Assembly: GCF_006547065.1 (NCBI RefSeq)
Contig: NZ_CP041243.1
Coordinates: 3,115,001-3,179,000 of the forward strand
Direction: 5' to 3'
Source: Brevundimonas sp. M20
Lineage (GTDB): Bacteria > Pseudomonadota > Alphaproteobacteria > Caulobacterales > Caulobacteraceae
DNA length: 64,000 bases
The translations under genes were made by a program, and so were the position numbers. This document shows, piece by piece, positions 7,475 through 49,234 of this stretch. Numbering within the stretch: the first letter of the stretch is position 1; each line of letters starts with the position of its first letter. The notes under the pieces are model-generated. The model made no database searches and was not told the origin of the DNA. It worked only from the letters and a program-made list of their open reading frames with translations.

Positions 7475-8131
7475 TCAGGCGACGGGGACGAGCTCGATCA
7501 GGTCAAGATTGGATTCGTTCTGCGGCCATGGGATCACCAGCCGCCAGCGACGCTCGCCGATCCGCTCCAGCGACGCGACCAGATCGCGGTCCGGGCGCTG
7601 GCCATAGGAATTGGCGGCCGGTTCGGACGCCAGAGCCATCGAGCCGAGCATGACCATGTGCCGGTCGTCCTCCGGGAAAAGCAGGCCGGAAGGACGTTGT
7701 GACCCGGTCTCCTTGACGAATTTCAGTCCGTTGGGGGTCTGTTCGATCCGGCAGGCGAACCAGCCGTAGATGACATAGCCCAGACCGTCCTCGCCGCCCT
7801 GCGAGCCCAGCTTCACGGTACGGCAGCGATAGGCGCCGGCGGGCGGGACGACGGAGGGACGGCGCGCATCCGGGGCGATCAGCTCGCCCAGACTGTTCAG
7901 ATCGCCCGAGCCGCGCTGGCGGCGGGCCTGTTGCAGGGCCAGGGACCAGGCGGCGTCGCGCCGGGTGTACCGGTCACGGTCCGACGCGGTGATGATGCTG
8001 CGCCAGTCCCGCAGGGTCGCGCCCGGTCCACCTGACGGCGGCGGGGGCGGCGGGGCCGGCGTGGAGGCGCAGGCCGAAAGGGTCAGGGCGGCGCCGACCA
8101 ACAGGGTCGACAGCCGGAACAGGCGAGGCAT
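7475..8131 (-). CDS. DUF4893-type lipoprotein, copy B
   Basis: The start at 8131 gives 218 residues beginning MPRLFRLSTLLVGAALTLSA with a lipobox ending at Cys (LSAC) and then a Pro-rich linker. The domain shares DWRSIITASDRDRYTRRDAA, YRCRTVKLGSQ, GSQRPSGLLFPEDDR and LVIPWPQNESNLDLIELV with the gene just downstream. The two form a tandem duplication on the same strand, 57 bp apart. No function is known for the domain. An earlier in-frame ATG (8167) would place a charged tail before the signal peptide and is less likely. Confidence 0.8.
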   Translation of the reverse strand: MPRLFRLSTLLVGAALTLSACASTPAPPPPPPSGGPGATLRDWRSIITASDRDRYTRRDAAWSLALQQARRQRGSGDLNSLGELIAPDARRPSVVPPAGAYRCRTVKLGSQGGEDGLGYVIYGWFACRIEQTPNGLKFVKETGSQRPSGLLFPEDDRHMVMLGSMALASEPAANSYGQRPDRDLVASLERIGERRWRLVIPWPQNESNLDLIELVPVA

Positions 8132-40027: not shown

Positions 40028-40513
40028 TCAGGCAGCGGTCCGACAGGCCGGGCAACGCCCGTGCGCCTCGATGGTGGTGCGCTCGATCACATAGCCGACA
40101 TCGGCGGCGGCCCGGTTAAGGCCCTCGGCGATCGCGGCCGGGATTTCTTCGGTAGCGCCGCAGCAGTCACAGATCAGGAAGGCCGCCGAATGATCCACGG
40201 CGCCGGACGAACAGGCCACATAGGCGCTGATCGAGGCGATGCGGTGGGCCAGCCCCTTGCGCTCGAGAAACTCGAGCGCGCGATAGACTGTGGGCGGCTT
40301 GGCCGGCTGGCCGTCCTCTCCGAAGCGGGCGATCAGGTCATAGGCCTTCACCGGCTCGCCGGCGGCCAGCAACAGCTCCAGCACCCGCATGCGGGCGGCG
40401 GTCATGCGCTCGCCCTCGCCCGTCAGGCGCGCGTCGGCAGCCGCCAGAGCCGAAGCCACGGAGTCGGCGGACGGTGGACCGTCGTGGTGGTGATGGTGGC
40501 AGGCGTCGCCCAT
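40028..40513 (-). CDS. zur: Zinc uptake regulator of the Fur family
   Basis: The 161-residue protein is a Fur-family repressor: winged helix with MTAARMRVLELLLAAGEPVK and PPTVYRALEFLERKGLAHRI, then a metal domain with CDCCGATEEIPAA and a CPACRTA tail (the structural zinc site). I chose ATG 40513 (MGDACHHHHHDGPP), which puts five histidines at positions 6-10. The assignment to Zur rests on the divergent ZnuD-like receptor and the palindrome between them. When zinc is plentiful Zur would repress the receptor and possibly itself. Confidence 0.9.
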   Translation of the reverse strand: MGDACHHHHHDGPPSADSVASALAAADARLTGEGERMTAARMRVLELLLAAGEPVKAYDLIARFGEDGQPAKPPTVYRALEFLERKGLAHRIASISAYVACSSGAVDHSAAFLICDCCGATEEIPAAIAEGLNRAAADVGYVIERTTIEAHGRCPACRTAA

Positions 40514-40574
40514 GGACCGACAGCTAATGCTTCCCCCCGCCCGCCGCAACCGGAAGCGACTTGACGGAATGTGA

Positions 40575-40619: not shown

Positions 40620-42644
40620 ATGACCCTCCCCGCAGTCTCCCGCGCCGCCCTCCTGACCGCCCTCGGCTGGAGCGCCCTGGCCGGCGCCGCCGCCGCCCAG
40701 ACCGCTCCGCAACAGCCTGCGACTGAACTGGATGAAGTGGTCGTCACCGGCGCTCCCTTCGGAATCAATCAGCGCGCCACCACCATCGCCACCACCGTGG
40801 TCGATCAGGAAGCCCTCGCCCAGGCGCCCGCCGCCTCGCTGGGCGATCTGCTCAACGGCCTGCCGGGCGTGCGTTCTACCGACTTCGCGCCGGGCGCCAG
40901 CCGCCCGGTCATCCGGGGCCTGTCGGGCCCTCGGGTTCAGGTTCTGACCAACGGCATCGGCCTGATCGACGCCAGCTCGGTCTCCCCGGACCACCAGGTC
41001 GCCACTGACCCCGCTGAAGCCAACCGGATCGAGATCGTGCGGGGGCCGGCGACCCTGGCCTACGGCGGCACCGCCATCGGCGGCGTCGTGAACGTTCTGG
41101 ACGGCCGCATCCCGGACCGCCTGCCGGACGGTGTGGACGGCATGGTCTCCACCCAGGCGTCCAGCGTCGATGACGGCTGGGCTGCCTCGGGCCGCGCCAC
41201 CTTCGCGCTCGGCCCCATCGCCGTGAATCTGGATGGGATCAAGAAGGACGCCTCGGACTACGACATCCCGGCCCCCGCGATCTCGCAACGGCTGGCCGAC
41301 GCCGAGGGCATTTCGCGCGGCGAGGGCGGCACGCAGCCGAACAGCTTCTCCGAACTGGAAAGCTGGGGCCTGGGCGCGTCATATATCGGGTCGCGCGGCT
41401 ATATCGGCGCGTCGTACAAGGACCTCTCATCGACCTACGGCACTGTGGCCGAGCCGGACGTCTTCATCGAGCTGAAGCAGACGCGTGAAGACGTGCGCGG
41501 CGAGCTGCGCTTCGACAGCGGCCCGTTCCAGGCGGTGCGCGGGTCGGCCGGCCACGCCGAGTACACTCACACCGAGTTTGAGGGTCCGGGCGAGCCCGGC
41601 ACGATCTTCAACTCCGACGGTCAGGAAGGCCGGATCGATCTGGTCCAGCGTGAGCGGAACGGCTGGAACGGGGCGATCGGCGTACAGGCGCTGTCGCGCA
41701 CCTTCGAGGCGATCGGCGATGAGGCCTTCGTGCCCTCCAGCAAGATCGAGGAGACGGGCATCTATACGGTCCAGCGTCTGGACAGGGACGGTTGGGGGCT
41801 GGAGGGCGGCCTGCGTTATGATCGCCGCACCCTCGCCGCCGATCCGTTGGACGGCAGCGCCCGCGTGGATCGCAGCTTTGACAACTGGTCCGGCTCGGCG
41901 GCCGCCTTCATCCGCCCGACCCACAATCTGTTCCTGGGCCTGAGCTTGGCGCACAATGAGCGCGCGCCGTCCGAAGTCGAACTGTTCGCCGACGGCCTGC
42001 ACGTCGCCACCGCTGTCTACGAGACAGGCGATGTGACGCTGGACAACGAAAAGGTCACCACCCTCGAAGGCACCATCCACTTCGACGCGGGCCGTTTCCG
42101 CGGCGACCTGCACGTGTATGCGTCGAAGTATGACGGCTTCATCGATGAACGCCCGACCGGCGCGACCTTCGTCGACGACGGCGAGGAATTCCCGATCTTC
42201 CAGTTCACCCAGACAGACGCGGAGTTCCGGGGTTTCGAGGCCGAAGCCTCGTATGAGCTGTGGAGCTCGGGTGATCGCGCGCTGTCACTGGAAGGCGCCG
42301 CCGACTATGTCCATGCCGATACCGATCTGGGGCCCGCGGCCCGGATCCCGCCGTACAGCGTGACCGGCCGTCTGGCCTGGACCTCGACGCCGTTCGACGC
42401 GACCTTCGAAGTTCGCCACGTCGGCGAGCAGGATCGTCTGGCCGACTACGAACTGGGCACCGACAGTTACACGCTGGTGAACCTGTCGGGCGCCTGGCGC
42501 CCCTTCGCCGACAGGAACGTCTCGGTCTTCGCCGAGGCGCACAACCTGACCGATGAGGAAGCGCGGGAGCACGTCAGCTTCCTCAAGGATGTGGCCCCGC
42601 TCCCGGGCCGCAACCTGCGCGTGGGCGTCAGCTACCGCTTCTAG
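40620..42644 (+). CDS. znuD: ZnuD-like TonB-dependent zinc receptor
   Basis: The 674-residue receptor has a signal peptide (LGWSALAGAAAAQ), TonB box LDEVVVTGAP, a plug with SRPVIRGLSGPRVQVLTNGI, SSVSPDHQVATDPAEANRIE and VRGPATLAYGGTAIGGVVNV, and a barrel ending VGVSYRF. These plug segments are characteristic of ZnuD. It would import zinc or a zinc complex across the outer membrane. Divergent zur and the shared operator support zinc control. A terminator follows. Confidence 0.9.
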   Translation: MTLPAVSRAALLTALGWSALAGAAAAQTAPQQPATELDEVVVTGAPFGINQRATTIATTVVDQEALAQAPAASLGDLLNGLPGVRSTDFAPGASRPVIRGLSGPRVQVLTNGIGLIDASSVSPDHQVATDPAEANRIEIVRGPATLAYGGTAIGGVVNVLDGRIPDRLPDGVDGMVSTQASSVDDGWAASGRATFALGPIAVNLDGIKKDASDYDIPAPAISQRLADAEGISRGEGGTQPNSFSELESWGLGASYIGSRGYIGASYKDLSSTYGTVAEPDVFIELKQTREDVRGELRFDSGPFQAVRGSAGHAEYTHTEFEGPGEPGTIFNSDGQEGRIDLVQRERNGWNGAIGVQALSRTFEAIGDEAFVPSSKIEETGIYTVQRLDRDGWGLEGGLRYDRRTLAADPLDGSARVDRSFDNWSGSAAAFIRPTHNLFLGLSLAHNERAPSEVELFADGLHVATAVYETGDVTLDNEKVTTLEGTIHFDAGRFRGDLHVYASKYDGFIDERPTGATFVDDGEEFPIFQFTQTDAEFRGFEAEASYELWSSGDRALSLEGAADYVHADTDLGPAARIPPYSVTGRLAWTSTPFDATFEVRHVGEQDRLADYELGTDSYTLVNLSGAWRPFADRNVSVFAEAHNLTDEEAREHVSFLKDVAPLPGRNLRVGVSYRF

Positions 42645-43999: not shown

Positions 44000-45022
44000 T
44001 CAGGCGGCCGGCTCTTCCGACACCCTGACCAGCAGCTTGCCGTCATGGTCGCCGGTGAACAAGCGGTTCAGCGAGTCCAGCGCGACCTCCAGTCCGTCAT
44101 CGACGTGGACCTTCCATTGCACCCGACCGTCGGCGAGCATCGGCCCGACCTCGGCCACCATTTCCTTCGCCCGATGACCGTAGTCCAGAACCAGGAAGCC
44201 CTTCACGTCGAGGCGGTGGGTGATGATCCGGCTGAAGTTCGGCGATGGCGGCGCCTTGGTCGCATTGTACGAGGAGATCAGGCCGCAGACGGCCATGCGA
44301 CCGTGCACCTTCAGGCGATTGAAGACGGCCATCATGATGTCGCCGCCGACATTCTCGAAATTCATCTCGAACCCGTCGGGAGCCAGACGGTCCAGCGCCG
44401 CGCCGACGTCTTCGTTCTTGTAGTCGATGGCGGCGTCGAACCCGAGATCCTCGGTCAACCAGCGACACTTGTCGGGGCCGCCCGCGATGCCGATGACGCG
44501 TGCGCCGTGGGCCTTGGCGATCTGGCCCGCGATGGAGCCGACGGCGCCGGCGGCGGCAGAGATGACGATGGTCTCGCCCGCCTTGGCCTTCAGTACATCG
44601 GTGACGCCCGCCCAGGCGGTCATGCCGGTCATGCCCAGCACGGACATGTTGGCGGTCAACGGCAGGCCCGGCGCGCGATGAACGCGTGAGGCCGTGCTGT
44701 CCGGGATCACCGCATAATCGGCCCAGCCGCCCGCTGCTGTCGTGACCACGTCGCCGACCTTGAAGCGCTCAGACCGGCTTTCCTCGACCACGCCCAGGGT
44801 CAGGCCGCGCATGACCCCACCCAGCGGCACGGCGGGCAAATAGCCCTCCGCCTCGTTCATCCAGGTGCGGTTGGTCGGGTCCAGCGACAGATAGATGGTC
44901 CGGACAAGAATTTCGGATTCGTTCAGCTCCGGCAGGGTCCCTTCGATCAGCTCGAGATCTCCGGGCTGGATCAAGCCGCTGGGACGCTGGCGCAGCACCC
45001 ACTGACGATTGGTTCGAGCCAT
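44000..45022 (-). CDS. NADP-dependent oxidoreductase (MDR superfamily, leukotriene B4 dehydrogenase-like)
   Basis: The 340-residue enzyme (ATG 45022, GGAGGAA upstream) has LSLDPTNRTWMNEAEGYLPA, the nucleotide-binding segment ISAAAGAVGSIAGQIAKAHG, GGPDKCRWLTEDLGFDAAID and FENVGGDIMMAVFNRLKVHG. This is the zinc-free MDR group that reduces enals and similar unsaturated compounds with NADPH. The start lies about 70 bp downstream of the terminator of the candidate small RNA; readthrough from that stress promoter could add to its expression. Confidence 0.92.
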   Translation of the reverse strand: MARTNRQWVLRQRPSGLIQPGDLELIEGTLPELNESEILVRTIYLSLDPTNRTWMNEAEGYLPAVPLGGVMRGLTLGVVEESRSERFKVGDVVTTAAGGWADYAVIPDSTASRVHRAPGLPLTANMSVLGMTGMTAWAGVTDVLKAKAGETIVISAAAGAVGSIAGQIAKAHGARVIGIAGGPDKCRWLTEDLGFDAAIDYKNEDVGAALDRLAPDGFEMNFENVGGDIMMAVFNRLKVHGRMAVCGLISSYNATKAPPSPNFSRIITHRLDVKGFLVLDYGHRAKEMVAEVGPMLADGRVQWKVHVDDGLEVALDSLNRLFTGDHDGKLLVRVSEEPAA

Positions 45023-45092
45023 TGACGGTTCCTCCGGGTTTTCTTTCTGGACGCGCATAGTGGCTTGCCCCGCGCCGCTGTCCAGTCGCGCC

Positions 45093-45125
45093 AAAGAAAA
45101 AGGCGGACCGCATATGGTCCGCCTT
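45093..45125 (-). terminator. Intrinsic terminator of the candidate small RNA
   Basis: AAGGCGGACC (45100-45109) and GGTCCGCCTT (45116-45125) form a perfect 10-bp stem with a 6-nt loop. The T-rich tract is on the minus strand (TTTCTTT), so it ends a leftward transcript. No minus-strand protein gene precedes it; it is 70 bp upstream of the oxidoreductase start. Confidence 0.85.
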
Positions 45126-45211
45126 GAAGTGGCATCATCGAGAATGAGGTGCGGAGGCGACAGACCGGCTGGCGCCGGTCTCAAGTCGGGGGGGCGTCGC
45201 CGCCTCCGCAG
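45094..45211 (-). ncRNA. gsrN: Candidate EcfG-dependent small RNA, GsrN-like
   Basis: On the minus strand an exact EcfG promoter (GGAAC 45242-45238, 16 nt, CGTT 45221-45218) predicts a start near 45211. The RNA begins with a two-part stem (TGCGGA and GGCGAC 45210-45196 with GTCGCC and TCCGCA 45161-45150, a GGC bulge on one side). Its internal loop exposes C7 (45194-45188), and an inner 8-bp hairpin AGACCGGC/GCCGGTCT follows. After a linker comes an intrinsic terminator (AAGGCGGACC/GGTCCGCCTT, then TTTCTTT). No coding frame explains it. Caulobacter GsrN is a sigma-T-dependent sRNA with a C-rich target loop that, as I recall, lies near the phyR/sigT genes. Structure, promoter and location fit; sequence homology could not be tested. 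Confidence 0.7.
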
Positions 45212-45217
45212 TCAGAT

Positions 45218-45242
45218 AACGAGGCCTCCCCGCCCGGGTTCC
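45218..45242 (-). promoter_or_regulatory. EcfG-type promoter of the candidate small RNA
   Basis: Minus strand GGAAC (45242-45238), 16 nt, CGTT (45221-45218). Exact consensus. The predicted start falls at the first paired base of the structured RNA. Confidence 0.75.
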
Positions 45243-45279: not shown

Positions 45280-45305
45280 GGAACAGCGCCGCCGGGCGCA
45301 GCGTT
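45280..45305 (+). promoter_or_regulatory. EcfG-type promoter of the small membrane protein gene
   Basis: Plus strand GGAAC (45280-45284), 17 nt, CGTT (45302-45305), 38 bp before the ATG at 45344. It lies back to back with the small RNA promoter. Confidence 0.72.
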
Positions 45306-45343: not shown

Positions 45344-45625
45344 ATGAGCCCGCAATCCCCCCACGACAAGGTCGCCGACGCCGTACATGAGGGTCGGCCC
45401 GCCGACGCCCAACTGGTCCGGCAGGGCCGAAGCGGTAGACGCATCCTGCTTCTGCTGATCGTCTCTGCTGGCGCCGCTGCGGTCCTGTTGCTCGGGCTGT
45501 GGGCCGCGACCAACGGCCGCTTCGCGGACCTTGAGCCCAGCCGGGCCGAAAAGGCGGCCGAGGCGCAGACCTTTGATCAGGAACCGACGGCGACGGCTCC
45601 CGTCACGGCCGCCCCGGCGCGGTAG
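45344..45625 (+). CDS. Small single-helix membrane protein, probable stress-response member
   Basis: The 93-residue protein has a hydrophilic N-terminus (MSPQSPHDKVADAVHEGRPA), a basic stretch RQGRSGRR, one helix (ILLLLIVSAGAAAVLLLGLW) and a short acidic, Ala/Thr/Pro-rich tail that would lie in the periplasm. GGGAGG lies 6 nt before the ATG. The upstream EcfG motif and the position beside phyR suggest it belongs to the general stress response. I do not recognise a family and assign no activity. Confidence 0.8.
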   Translation: MSPQSPHDKVADAVHEGRPADAQLVRQGRSGRRILLLLIVSAGAAAVLLLGLWAATNGRFADLEPSRAEKAAEAQTFDQEPTATAPVTAAPAR

Positions 45626-45630
45626 CGGAC

Positions 45631-45670
45631 GAGAAAAGGCCCCGGCTACGCCACCGGGGCCTTCTCTTTT
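45631..45670. terminator. Bidirectional intrinsic terminator
   Basis: AAGGCCCCGG (45636-45645) and CCGGGGCCTT (45654-45663) form a 10-bp stem, flanked by GAGAA and TTCTCTTTT. It separates the small membrane protein gene from convergent phyR. Confidence 0.85.
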
Positions 45671-45688: not shown

Positions 45689-46483
45689 TCAGGCCGCTTC
45701 CTTCTGGCGCGATGGATGGAAGAACAGCGCCTGACTGATCGCCGCCTTCACCGTTTCGGGCTGGAAGGGCTTGGTGATCAGGAAGGTCGGCTCGGGCCGC
45801 TCTCCGGTCAGCAGACGTTCAGGGAAGGCGGTGATGAAGATCACCGGCACGTCGATCCGCTTAAGGATGTCCTTCACAGCGTCGATGCCCGAGGAACCGT
45901 CGGCCAGCTGGATATCGGCCAGCACCAGCCCCGGACGATGGCGCGCGACGGCGTCGACGGCTTCGTCATGGGTGGTCGCGATGCCGGTGACGTGGTGGCC
46001 CAACTCCTTCACCAGACTTTCGATGTCCGCGGAAATGATCGCCTCATCCTCGATGATCAGGACGTCCGTCGCGAGCTCCGCGTCGATGTCCGATTGCGCT
46101 TCCGAGATCAGTCGCTCGACGTCCAGCGCGTCGGCTTCCAGGATCTGGGCGGCTTCCGAGGGGGTGAACCCTTCGAGGGCGGTCAGCAGAAAAGCCTGAC
46201 GCGACTTGGGCGCGATCCGCATCAGACGGCCCGCGGCGTCATCGCGGCCTTCGATGCCGCTCTTGTCTTCCAGCTGTGCGCCCGTCGAGGCCCAGATGGC
46301 GTGGAACACATGATACAACGCCACGCGCGGCGTCATATCGGTCGGCAATTGCCGCTCTCCGGCGGCCAGGGCCTCAAGGGCGACACGGACGTAATTATCG
46401 CCCGTCGTCTGATCGCCGGTAAGCGCGCGAGCGTAACGGCGAACATAGGGCAGGTGCGGCGCAAGGCGGGCCAGCAGGCTCAT
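45689..46483 (-). CDS. phyR: General stress response regulator PhyR
   Basis: PhyR is an anti-anti-sigma response regulator. Residues 1 to about 130 mimic a sigma factor (LARLAPHLPYVRRYARALTG, LTALEGFTPSEAAQILEADA). Residues 140-255 are a receiver domain with E145/D146, phospho-acceptor D190 (LVLADIQLADGSSG) and the conserved Lys in FLITKPFQ. When phosphorylated it binds NepR and frees EcfG. It diverges from nepR-ecfG across 186 bp and has its own EcfG-type promoter, giving positive feedback. Confidence 0.97.
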   Translation of the reverse strand: MSLLARLAPHLPYVRRYARALTGDQTTGDNYVRVALEALAAGERQLPTDMTPRVALYHVFHAIWASTGAQLEDKSGIEGRDDAAGRLMRIAPKSRQAFLLTALEGFTPSEAAQILEADALDVERLISEAQSDIDAELATDVLIIEDEAIISADIESLVKELGHHVTGIATTHDEAVDAVARHRPGLVLADIQLADGSSGIDAVKDILKRIDVPVIFITAFPERLLTGERPEPTFLITKPFQPETVKAAISQALFFHPSRQKEAA

Positions 46484-46537: not shown

Positions 46538-46562
46538 AACGTATCAAATCAGCCACGGTTCC
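46538..46562 (-). promoter_or_regulatory. EcfG-type promoter of phyR
   Basis: Minus strand GGAAC (46562-46558), 16 nt, CGTT (46541-46538), 55 bp before the phyR start. Exact consensus. Confidence 0.78.
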
Positions 46563-46604: not shown

Positions 46605-46629
46605 GGAACCCCAAGGCCGGCGTGGCGTT
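46605..46629 (+). promoter_or_regulatory. EcfG-type promoter of nepR-ecfG
   Basis: Plus strand GGAAC (46605-46609), 16 nt, CGTT (46626-46629), 41 bp before the nepR ATG. Exact consensus and expected for autoregulation. Confidence 0.8.
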
Positions 46630-46669: not shown

Positions 46670-46864
46670 ATGACAGACAACTCCAACCCTCCGGGGAAAC
46701 CGGCCAAGGGCGGCGCCGGCCTCGAAGAGGCCCGCCTGCGTCAACAGGCCATCGGCGTGAAGCTGAGGCATATGTTCGACGAGGTGGTGAACGAGCCCGT
46801 TCCCGATGAATTCCTCGACATTCTGCGTCGCGCTGACGAGCGGTCCGAGGGAGGCGGCGCATGA
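46670..46864 (+). CDS. nepR: Anti-sigma factor NepR
   Basis: The 64-residue protein has the NepR core LRQQAIGVKLRHMFDEVVNE and PVPDEFLDILRRAD, two helices that clamp EcfG or the sigma-like domain of PhyR. The N-terminus is disordered (Pro/Gly/Lys-rich). I chose ATG 46670; the ORF is open further upstream but that would run through the promoter. Its stop overlaps the ecfG start by ATGA, so anti-sigma and sigma are made in fixed ratio. Confidence 0.95.
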   Translation: MTDNSNPPGKPAKGGAGLEEARLRQQAIGVKLRHMFDEVVNEPVPDEFLDILRRADERSEGGGA

Positions 46865-47457
46865 ATGCCGCCCCCAAGCCTCCGTCGGCTGATGACAACG
46901 CCTTCAAAAAGGAACTCGTCACCCTGATCCCGCATCTGCGGGCCTTCGCGCGCACCCTGACGGGCGACCCCACGGCCGCCGACGATCTGGCGCAGGACGC
47001 GATGATGAAGGCGTGGGACGCCCGCGCCAGCTACCAGATGGGCACCAACATGAAGGCGTGGACCTTCATGATCCTGCGCAACCAGTTCTATTCCGAGAAG
47101 CGTCGGTCGTGGCGCCAGTCGCAACTGGATCAGGAGGCCGCCGAACGGACTCTGGTGGCGGTGGACGATCCGGAATCGCCCGTCGCTCTGGACGAGTTGC
47201 GTCTGGCCCTCGCCACCCTGCCCGAGGAACAGCGTGAAGCGTTGATCCTGGTCGGCGCCGGGGGGTTCGCCTATGAGGAGGCCGCCGAAATCTGCCAGTG
47301 CGCGGTCGGCACCGTGAAGAGCCGGGTCTCCAGAGCCCGCAAGGCGCTGCAGGCGACGCTTGAGAAAGGCGGGTATGCCCGTGATGGCCGCGCCGCCGGC
47401 GACGCCATGCGTTCCATCCTTGCAGATGCCGACCGCCTGAGCAGCGTCCGGAACTGA
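46861..47457 (+). CDS. ecfG: General stress sigma factor EcfG (SigT type)
   Basis: The 198-residue ECF sigma factor has region 2 (LRAFARTLTGDPTAADDLAQ, DAMMKAWDARASYQMGTNMK) and region 4 (LPEEQREALILVGAGGFAYE, CQCAVGTVKSRVSRARKALQ), typical of the EcfG group. It directs RNA polymerase to GGAAC...CGTT promoters, several of which I see in this window. It is coupled to nepR by ATGA, and the histidine kinase gene follows 4 bp later. Confidence 0.96.
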   Translation: MNAAPKPPSADDNAFKKELVTLIPHLRAFARTLTGDPTAADDLAQDAMMKAWDARASYQMGTNMKAWTFMILRNQFYSEKRRSWRQSQLDQEAAERTLVAVDDPESPVALDELRLALATLPEEQREALILVGAGGFAYEEAAEICQCAVGTVKSRVSRARKALQATLEKGGYARDGRAAGDAMRSILADADRLSSVRN

Positions 47458-47461
47458 TCGG

Positions 47462-49234
47462 GTGGTGCGACTGGGGCGCGCATTCGGCCGGGGCCTCTCC
47501 CAGCCGAAATTCCAGGGCATCCGCTTCCGGCTGGGTGTCGCCCTTGCGCTCGCCCTGTTGCCGATCCTTCTGCTCGGCGCCTTTCAGGCGCAGCAGCAGT
47601 TTCGTGCTCAGGATCTGGAACGTCGCCAGGATTTGCAACTGGCGGCCGAACGCACGGCCGCCAGCGCCAAGTCCCGTCTGGACAGCACCAGTGTCCTCCT
47701 TCAGGCCCTGCGCCCCGAAGCGCTGGAGGTCTTCTGCGAGCCAAGGTTGACGGCTCTGGTCAGCCGGCTGGATGGTCTGGACGGATTGGCCCGCGTCACC
47801 GCGACCGGCTACACCACCTGCGCCTCCCGTGGTCTGGTGGACGACACGCCGCCATGGCTTGCGCAAGCCCGCCAGAGCGCCTGGTTCCAGCGGCTGCGGG
47901 CGGGAGAAGGCACCGTCCTCGCACGCGCCCCCGCGGCGCCCGGCCAGGAACCGGGCCTGATTGTAGCGCTGCGGCTGGAACGTCCGCTGGGCGCCTTTGA
48001 CGGCGCCATGATCGCGGTCATTCCGCTGGCCTCTCTTCAACCCGATGTCGCCGATGCCGCCCTGCCTGAAGGCTCACAGGCCGCACTGACCGACTCCGCC
48101 GGACGCATCCTGACCGCCACCGACACCACCGCCTTCACCCTCAAAGGCGATATGTCCCTGACCGGTTGGGTGGAAAGGGCTCGCACGGAAGGCTCGTCCA
48201 TCTTCGAAGCGGACTCCACCGACAACCGCCACCGGGTTTTCGCCGGCGCCGCGCTGGCGGGCCGGGACGTTTACGCCCTGCTGTCGGCGCCCTCGCCCGG
48301 CCTGCTGTCCTGGGCCCGTCTGAACCCGGTCGGTCTGCTGTTCATGCCGCTGGCGGCCTGGCTGGCCGCCTTCGCGTCGGTCATGCTGTTCAGCGAACGG
48401 ATCGTGGTCCGCTGGCTGGACTATCTGGAGCGGATCGCCGCCATCTACGCCCGGGGTCGCTTCTCGGTCCGGGCGGTGCAGGCGGTGAACGCCCCGTCCG
48501 AAATTCGGGTGCTGGCGCGAACCTTGGACGAGCTGGCCGACACCATCACCACCCGCGACGCCGCTCTTCTGGCCTCGGTCGATGAGAAAGACGCGCTGAT
48601 GCGCGAGATCCATCACCGGGTGAAGAACAATCTGCAGATCATCTCATCCCTGCTGTCGATGCAGCAGCGGGCGCTGACCGATGAACCCGCCAAGGCGGCC
48701 GTCGGCGACACCCGGCAGCGGATCGCCGCCCTGGCCCTGATCTATCGGACACTCTACCAGAGCGACGACCTGCGCTACGCCGACGCCCGCATCTTCCTGA
48801 CCGAGTTGGTCGGGCAGCTGATCGCCAGCGAAAGCGGGCGCGGCCATCTCGTGACCTCATCGGTCGAGGCGGATTCGCTGGTGGTGGACCCCGACAAGCT
48901 GGCCCCGCTGGCGCTTTGGCTCGTGGAGGCCGTAACCAATGCGCAGAAGCACGCCTTCGCCGGACGCGGCGGCGACCTCAAGGTCCGATTCAGAGTGCAG
49001 GGCGACCGTAGCGTACTTGAGGTTCAGGACAACGGACCGGGGGTCAGCGAGACCGAACGCGCCGGTGTCGGGCGAACCCTGATGGGCGCCTTCGCCAAAC
49101 AGCTCCGAGGCGAGGCGGAGATGATCCCCGCCGAAGGGGGGGGGACCATCGCCCGCATGACCTTCGCCACGCCTGAAGCCGTCATTCCGGCCGACCCCGC
49201 GGATCTGGGAACCGCACCCGCGCCGCGACGTTGA
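47462..49234 (+). CDS. PhyK-type sensor histidine kinase (HisKA_2 family)
   Basis: The 590-residue membrane kinase has helices at about 23-43 and 292-312 bounding an extracytoplasmic sensor region, a HAMP-like linker, then the HisKA_2 box EIHHRVKNNLQIISSLLSMQ and an ATPase domain (LWLVEAVTNAQKHAF, LEVQDNGPGVSETERAGVG). Kinases of this family phosphorylate PhyR in alphaproteobacteria. The start is GTG 47462 or 47465, 4 bp after ecfG, so it is in the same operon. The sensed signal is unknown. The 3' end holds a promoter for the next gene. Confidence 0.92.
   Translation: MVRLGRAFGRGLSQPKFQGIRFRLGVALALALLPILLLGAFQAQQQFRAQDLERRQDLQLAAERTAASAKSRLDSTSVLLQALRPEALEVFCEPRLTALVSRLDGLDGLARVTATGYTTCASRGLVDDTPPWLAQARQSAWFQRLRAGEGTVLARAPAAPGQEPGLIVALRLERPLGAFDGAMIAVIPLASLQPDVADAALPEGSQAALTDSAGRILTATDTTAFTLKGDMSLTGWVERARTEGSSIFEADSTDNRHRVFAGAALAGRDVYALLSAPSPGLLSWARLNPVGLLFMPLAAWLAAFASVMLFSERIVVRWLDYLERIAAIYARGRFSVRAVQAVNAPSEIRVLARTLDELADTITTRDAALLASVDEKDALMREIHHRVKNNLQIISSLLSMQQRALTDEPAKAAVGDTRQRIAALALIYRTLYQSDDLRYADARIFLTELVGQLIASESGRGHLVTSSVEADSLVVDPDKLAPLALWLVEAVTNAQKHAFAGRGGDLKVRFRVQGDRSVLEVQDNGPGVSETERAGVGRTLMGAFAKQLRGEAEMIPAEGGGTIARMTFATPEAVIPADPADLGTAPAPRR
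49208..49232 (+). promoter_or_regulatory. EcfG-type promoter of the entericidin-like gene
   Basis: GGAAC (49208-49212), 16 nt, CGTT (49229-49232) lies inside the last codons of the kinase gene, 42 bp before the ATG of the small lipoprotein gene. Confidence 0.7.

Follow-up and report, generated by a model that had tools for sequence, protein, structure and literature searches.

Within the 64,000-nt stretch of Brevundimonas sp. M20 DNA analysed here (the window), the minus strand beside phyR holds what a sequence-only reading had taken for the gene of a small RNA (sRNA) driven by the stress sigma factor, likely the counterpart of GsrN, which is ccna_R0081 in Caulobacter crescentus according to passages of PMC5869019. 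This raises two questions, namely whether the RNA is indeed GsrN, and which of its parts appear to be under selection among relatives. The features on which the argument rests are collected in Table 1.

Table 1. Features of the sRNA and its general stress locus, in window positions
Feature	Position	Strand	Basis
Dehydrogenase gene, downstream of the sRNA	44000-45022	-	ORF list
Intrinsic terminator and U-rich tail	45093..45125	-	Terminator scan; stem 45125-45100
GsrN small RNA, about 115 nt	45094..45209	-	RF01529 match; 5' end predicted via Caulobacter GsrN numbering
Conserved linker CCTCATTCTCGATGATGC, proposed second functional element	45132..45149	-	Pairwise identity
Outer stem, right arm	45151..45162	-	Fold; the C53/T54 processing site lies in the Caulobacter counterpart (passages of PMC5869019)
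Inner hairpin	45163..45180	-	Covarying pairs
C-rich loop GACGCCCCCCCGACTTGA, C7 at 45188-45194, proposed mRNA-pairing site	45181..45198	-	Unpaired probability; conservation
Outer stem, left arm	45199..45209	-	Folds
-10 element CGTT	45218..45221	-	Sequence; pattern scan
-35 element GGAAC	45238..45242	-	Sequence; pattern scan; homologue placement
phyR, response regulator/anti-anti-sigma factor	45689..46483	-	Pfam PhyR_sigma2, PhyR_sigma-like, Response_reg
nepR, anti-sigma factor (start codon assumed)	46670..46864	+	Pfam NepR
ecfG/sigT, general stress sigma factor	46861..47457	+	Pfam Sigma70_r2, Sigma70_r4_2
HisKA_2/HWE histidine kinase of the stress locus	47462..49234	+	Pfam HisKA_2, HATPase_c, HWE_HK

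The letters themselves spell an exact GGAAC-N16-CGTT, i.e. the sigma-EcfG consensus promoter, on the minus strand at 45242-45218, just as had been read. The window has eight sites of the form GGAAC-N15-17-CGTT, where shuffles lead one to expect 1.29, and three of the eight precede the sRNA, phyR and nepR. The bulged stem with its exposed C7 tract and inner hairpin is likewise seen in both the sequence and the folds: the outer stem pairs 45209-45199 with 45161-45151 on the minus strand (a further pair, T45210/A45150, is possible, but lies outside the predicted transcript start), and the C tract has a mean unpaired probability of 0.88 in the window RNA. The intrinsic terminator with its U-rich tail was found independently by a terminator scan; it starts around 25 nt past the close of the 5' domain, not the roughly 60 nt first given. 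While a 394-aa TTG open reading frame (44000-45184) in the ORF list overlaps the sRNA region, it is an upstream extension of the dehydrogenase gene, which probably starts with the ATG at 45022, preceded by a GGAGG found by eye. With this frame so explained, no credible coding gene runs through the sRNA, in line with the sequence-only reading.

The predicted fold is far more stable than chance (z = -6.43; 0 of 200 shuffles better), and covariation in related genomes, on which the sequence-only reading had staked its claim, is found as well. In an alignment of 31 sequences, 97.4 % of the cells pair and 15 of the 29 pairs show changes on both sides, amounting to 57 cells with two-sided changes, where shuffled alignments give 14.4 and slid controls no more than 8, although the number of pair types lies only weakly above the shuffles (32 vs 28.5; reached by 13 of 500). 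Two-sided changes were found in 3 of the 13 pairs of the outer helix, six of which never vary, in 5 of the 7 pairs counted in the inner hairpin, and, in some sequence, in 7 of the 9 terminator pairs.

The covariance search that had been proposed succeeded. In a cmscan search, the Rfam family RF01529 (‘CC3552’) covers positions 45101-45207 on the minus strand with 101.9 bits (E 1.3e-15; cut-off 50 bits), and it is the sole match above the cut-off in the window. Among 14 named control genomes, RF01529 matched only that of Caulobacter vibrioides. A literature search found no paper joining ‘CC3552’ with ‘sRNA’, and the link to GsrN comes from published positions: passages of PMC5869019 describe internal 5' ends of GsrN mapped at about C53, T54 and T64, as well as a C. 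crescentus allele without nt 59-106. When the G at the base of the outer stem is numbered as nucleotide 1 in one of the top hits, a Caulobacter-type locus (L084), the numbering yields C53, T54 and T64, and position 106 falls on the foot of the terminator. Since this locus reproduces the published positions and the 106-nt end, we infer that RF01529 and GsrN are one RNA. The same numbering, i.e. L084 together with the passages of PMC5869019, places the start of the window RNA at 45209, with a gap of 8 nt between CGTT and nucleotide 1 that equals the gap in L084. A start near 45211 and a length of about 118 nt, as first estimated, therefore need only a small correction, to 45209 and about 115 nt.

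The neighbourhood is that of the general stress response, with phyR, next to which the sequence-only reading had placed the RNA, nepR, ecfG and an HWE-type kinase all recognized by Pfam domains; the sigma factor was named ecfG because of its place beside nepR and phyR. EcfG-type promoters at 46538-46562 (minus strand) and 46605-46629 (plus strand) precede phyR and nepR-ecfG, respectively, an arrangement that would fit autoregulation of the stress locus. Another GGAAC-N17-CGTT at 45280-45305 (plus strand) faces a 93-aa open reading frame (45344-45625, plus strand) without a Pfam match, which recurs near the sRNA in several but not all relatives (tblastn, partial, 33-68 % identity), and L002 carries a similar GGAAC/CGTT site. 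Considering this facing promoter site, the recurrence in relatives and the site in L002, the frame may be another EcfG target. Further away, the ORF list shows by eye a Fur-type regulator (40028-40549, minus strand) beside a TonB-type receptor (40620-42644, plus strand), a pair perhaps involved in zinc uptake.

The distribution of the RNA was followed in the best 80 of 464 PhyR matches, taken from named records; the titles of most name Brevundimonas, Phenylobacterium or Caulobacter, and the top ones, including B. alba, are at 95 %. A model (R1) built from 31 members, some of which share species with loci among the 80 searched, was applied at E ≤ 0.002; it placed the RNA downstream of phyR and in the same orientation in 66 of these 80 loci. 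This count was reached after dropping 15 of 81 matches, i.e. 14 on the minus strand (including L079, E 1.6e-12) and one weak second match in L071. As for the other 14 loci, the contig ends less than 500 bases from phyR in seven, one has the gene on the opposite strand (L079, at 7530-7637, minus strand, around 2.7 kb from phyR), and six gave no R1 match over 4 kb, three of them still with an EcfG-like site just after phyR. GGAAC lies 32-35 nt ahead of the RNA match in all 66 phyR-linked homologues; exact GGAAC-N15-17-CGTT is found in 37 and a relaxed pattern in 56, while the remaining ten have, by eye, GGTT or AGTT at the -10 place. Across these loci, with real promoters left in, the background rate for a window of the same size is around 1.4 % for the strict pattern and 1.8 % for the relaxed one.

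These data also bear on two other origins of the RNA. That it follows phyR, in the same orientation, in 66 of the best 80 loci would suit a processed 3' end of the phyR mRNA; we give this next to no weight, considering the conserved promoter of its own ahead of the RNA and the gap of around 480 nt to phyR with its GC-rich palindrome at 45636-45663, a plus-strand terminator by scan that is followed by TTTTCTC on the minus strand by eye. Moreover, the RNA is present in L084 and L085, where PhyR has no match within 1.5 kb. Similarly, the terminator ends around 75 nt before the start of the dehydrogenase gene on the same strand, and a similar gene is found in 18 of the 66 sRNA-bearing loci, as would be expected of a cis-acting leader or attenuator of that gene in place of a trans-acting RNA. 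This is very improbable, since tblastn at 1e-8 gives no match to the dehydrogenase in the available stretch of 48 of the 66 loci, the same two loci, L084 and L085, lack a dehydrogenase match within 1.5 kb as well, and katG is a trans target of GsrN in Caulobacter, according to passages of PMC5869019.

At the genome level, RF01529 was found at E ≤ 0.001 in 125 of 199 genomes of the family, 119 of them over the cut-off, and 74 gave no match at this threshold, under stricter filters that lose weak matches. In an equally filtered search of an order-level sample, 52 of 299 genomes matched, all 52 within the family of the window. Second gsrN copies were considered for G078, G151, G155 and G159, but their weak second matches (E 3e-4 to 6e-4) lie inside long open frames, by eye in a gene on the opposite strand, and were for this reason taken as chance. 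A weak match elsewhere in the genome of the window (G000:C1:378996, E 0.005) is by eye a plain terminator, and there are further weak ones at E 0.5 and 0.6, one of which overlaps the sRNA from the opposite strand.

Taken together, the RF01529 match, the covariation, the placement of the -35 element in homologues, the synteny with phyR and the published homologues of the genus support the identity first proposed, and the window RNA is almost certainly the gsrN gene of a Brevundimonas species. By BLASTn, according to passages of PMC5869019, GsrN is present in Caulobacter, Brevundimonas and Phenylobacterium, and its gene usually sits close to ecfG, nepR and phyR. Therefore, gsrN in Brevundimonas was already known and has been correctly rediscovered here; the titles returned by our other literature searches included none on GsrN in this genus.

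A stress signal passing through PhyR and NepR would free EcfG, which, judging from the promoter and the neighbouring genes, would transcribe the RNA from GGAAC-N16-CGTT up to its own terminator, giving about 115 nt. The C7 loop of the 5' domain would then pair with G-rich stretches of mRNAs and alter their translation or stability, and cleavage close to the base of the outer stem would probably leave a stable 5' piece, expected at about 51-54 nt, both as shown in Caulobacter; the position homologous to the Caulobacter processing site is present in the window RNA by numbering.

According to passages of PMC5869019, the C loop of Caulobacter GsrN pairs in trans with the first seven nucleotides of the katG mRNA and raises KatG, and a pairing search against leaders such as that of katG had been suggested for this organism. 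The peroxidase-family matches of the genome fall in one 763-aa frame with two domains, which we infer to be KatG. Its leader has, by eye, no run of four G within around 100 nt before the start codon, and it ranks 46 of 49 for C-loop pairing from -100 to +30, in a ranking by simple duplex energy against 48 leaders of automatically picked ORFs, some of them doubtful genes, and with the katG transcript start not mapped. On the rank and the lack of a four-G run, katG does not stand out as a target here and is left unsupported, and the C-loop mechanism would carry over from Caulobacter.

Passages of PMC5869019 call the C loop the best conserved part across the family. This agrees with our counts for all 66 homologues, 59 of which keep GACGCCCCC against 41 with the exact linker core TCTCGATGATGC, the latter without any other occurrence in the 80 loci. 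It does not hold for loci titled Brevundimonas, where 16 of 21 have GACGCCCCC and 18 the exact core. By the same record titles, with L007 kept apart here although it belongs to the 25 sequences below, the respective numbers are 17 and 16 of 17 Phenylobacterium loci, and 16 and 2 of 16 Caulobacter loci.

In the 25 Brevundimonas-type sequences, the top conserved 13-nt windows fall in the linker. Mean pairwise identity is 0.97 and 0.94 for the -35 and -10 boxes, 0.91 for the linker, 0.75 and 0.66 for the left and right stem, 0.62 for the C loop, 0.55 for the terminator, 0.48 for the inner hairpin and 0.32-0.39 for the flanks. Two rows, L160 and L161, came from a linker search and bias the comparison toward the linker; without them (23 rows), the values are 0.90 for the linker, 0.85 for the left stem and 0.65 for the C loop. 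The 5' domain aligns poorly in diverged rows, and without six of these (n=19) the left stem leads with 0.96, followed by the linker (0.90), the right stem (0.89), the C tract with its near flanks (0.86) and the whole C loop (0.79).

Four of the six RF01529-negative Brevundimonas genomes listed (G107, G127, G180 and G195) carry, next to phyR, an EcfG promoter and the exact linker as well as what by eye is a terminator; their C tracts are reshaped or lost. Five one-mismatch linker hits from the same search had no promoter. The fifth, G174, has the C loop and lacks the linker, and G186 shows no EcfG promoter within 1.5 kb after phyR. Its locus (L167) and L032 are Brevundimonas genomes without a recognized gsrN beside phyR. 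A C tract of at least six C without an exact linker is found in G083/L078 and G092 of the same genus, as well as in G118 and G188 of other genera. Diverged gsrN genes of some Brevundimonas, in L010, L014, L026, L060 and L159-L162, keep promoter, linker and terminator, with the 5' domain largely rewritten.

It is tempting to speculate that GsrN has two modules, i.e. the C loop and, 5' of the terminator, the 18-nt linker as an independently selected target-binding element, a reading whose probability we place only just short of even. On these comparisons, the linker would prevail in Brevundimonas and Phenylobacterium, with most Caulobacter loci carrying an altered form. It would have been kept, with the C loop reshaped or lost, in B. 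diminuta relatives, L060/G107 and G180, and the C loop alone would have been kept in L078/G083, L077/G174 and L029/G092. Because lineages keep either one or the other, the two modules appear to have been lost independently. Caulobacter is the sole genus for which we met tests of GsrN, in passages of PMC5869019, and these passages also make room for a linker conserved merely as a processing or Hfq site, with no target pairing: the C. crescentus cut at T64 maps to the start of the linker region, Hfq stabilizes full-length GsrN, and the allele without nt 59-106 still protects against peroxide. We regard this as a serious possibility, if a somewhat doubtful one, considering that near-exact conservation over 18 nt seems beyond the needs of loose cleavage or a U-rich site, and that the exact core is absent from 14 of the 16 Caulobacter-titled loci although C. 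crescentus GsrN is processed. Going by its conservation, the linker probably acts as a second functional element of GsrN in Brevundimonas. Linker conservation was not found in the passages of PMC5869019.

The predicted fold places the linker partly in a 5-bp mini-hairpin, with a median unpaired probability of 0.335 (0.48 in the window RNA). By eye, Phenylobacterium linkers seem unable to form this hairpin, and base pairing may therefore not be enough to account for the conservation. A 12-nt stretch of the linker has its exact complement at three sites in the genome outside gsrN, each in a long open frame, two of which resemble glmS and recA in their motifs. This complement occurs in 36 of 41 genomes, families beyond that of the window included, far above a reversed control, and lies in a glmS-like frame in 9 of 30 inspected loci, one locus per genome; in L155 and L157, glmS-like and recA-like frames contain the complement of the linker core. 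The recurrence may be explained by codon use (Ile-Ile-Glu). No leader target was recognized among the 30 loci and the three stretches of the own genome, where gene starts were unmapped. A possible likeness of the linker to the 3' end of 16S rRNA was considered; two pattern searches of the genome gave no site at all.

Thus, a known stress RNA is now placed in this genome; the finding is real, was correctly read and, going by the passages of PMC5869019, is in print at genus level, and the linker is the part worth following. The best studied part of GsrN is not clearly its best conserved part in Brevundimonas, and the 3' half, described in those passages as dispensable for peroxide survival in C. 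crescentus, yet holds a strongly conserved element in sister genera. Comparison of relatives suggests that this second part of GsrN may also be under selection, and the conserved 3' element gives a concrete reason to study GsrN outside Caulobacter and to seek targets that the C loop leaves unexplained.

Compared with known systems, the window RNA is a full-length match to Rfam RF01529 (CC3552) with no notable difference, the entry being without the name GsrN. With C. crescentus GsrN, as far as passages of PMC5869019 describe it, it shares the Sigma-T/EcfG promoter, the C-rich loop in a bulged 5' stem, the inner hairpin, the terminator and a length of about 106-115 nt. The Caulobacter RNA has six C in place of C7, is encoded distal to the stress genes and not beside phyR, and has a C-loop site in the katG leader, whereas none is evident here; its linker, in L084, is of the CCCCTTTGTTGATGC type as opposed to CCTCATTCTCGATGATGC. 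Finally, the GsrN-like RNAs proposed for Rhizobiaceae, by the description in those passages, have the EcfG promoter, the stress locus and the C-rich loop in common with the RNA of Brevundimonas sp. M20.
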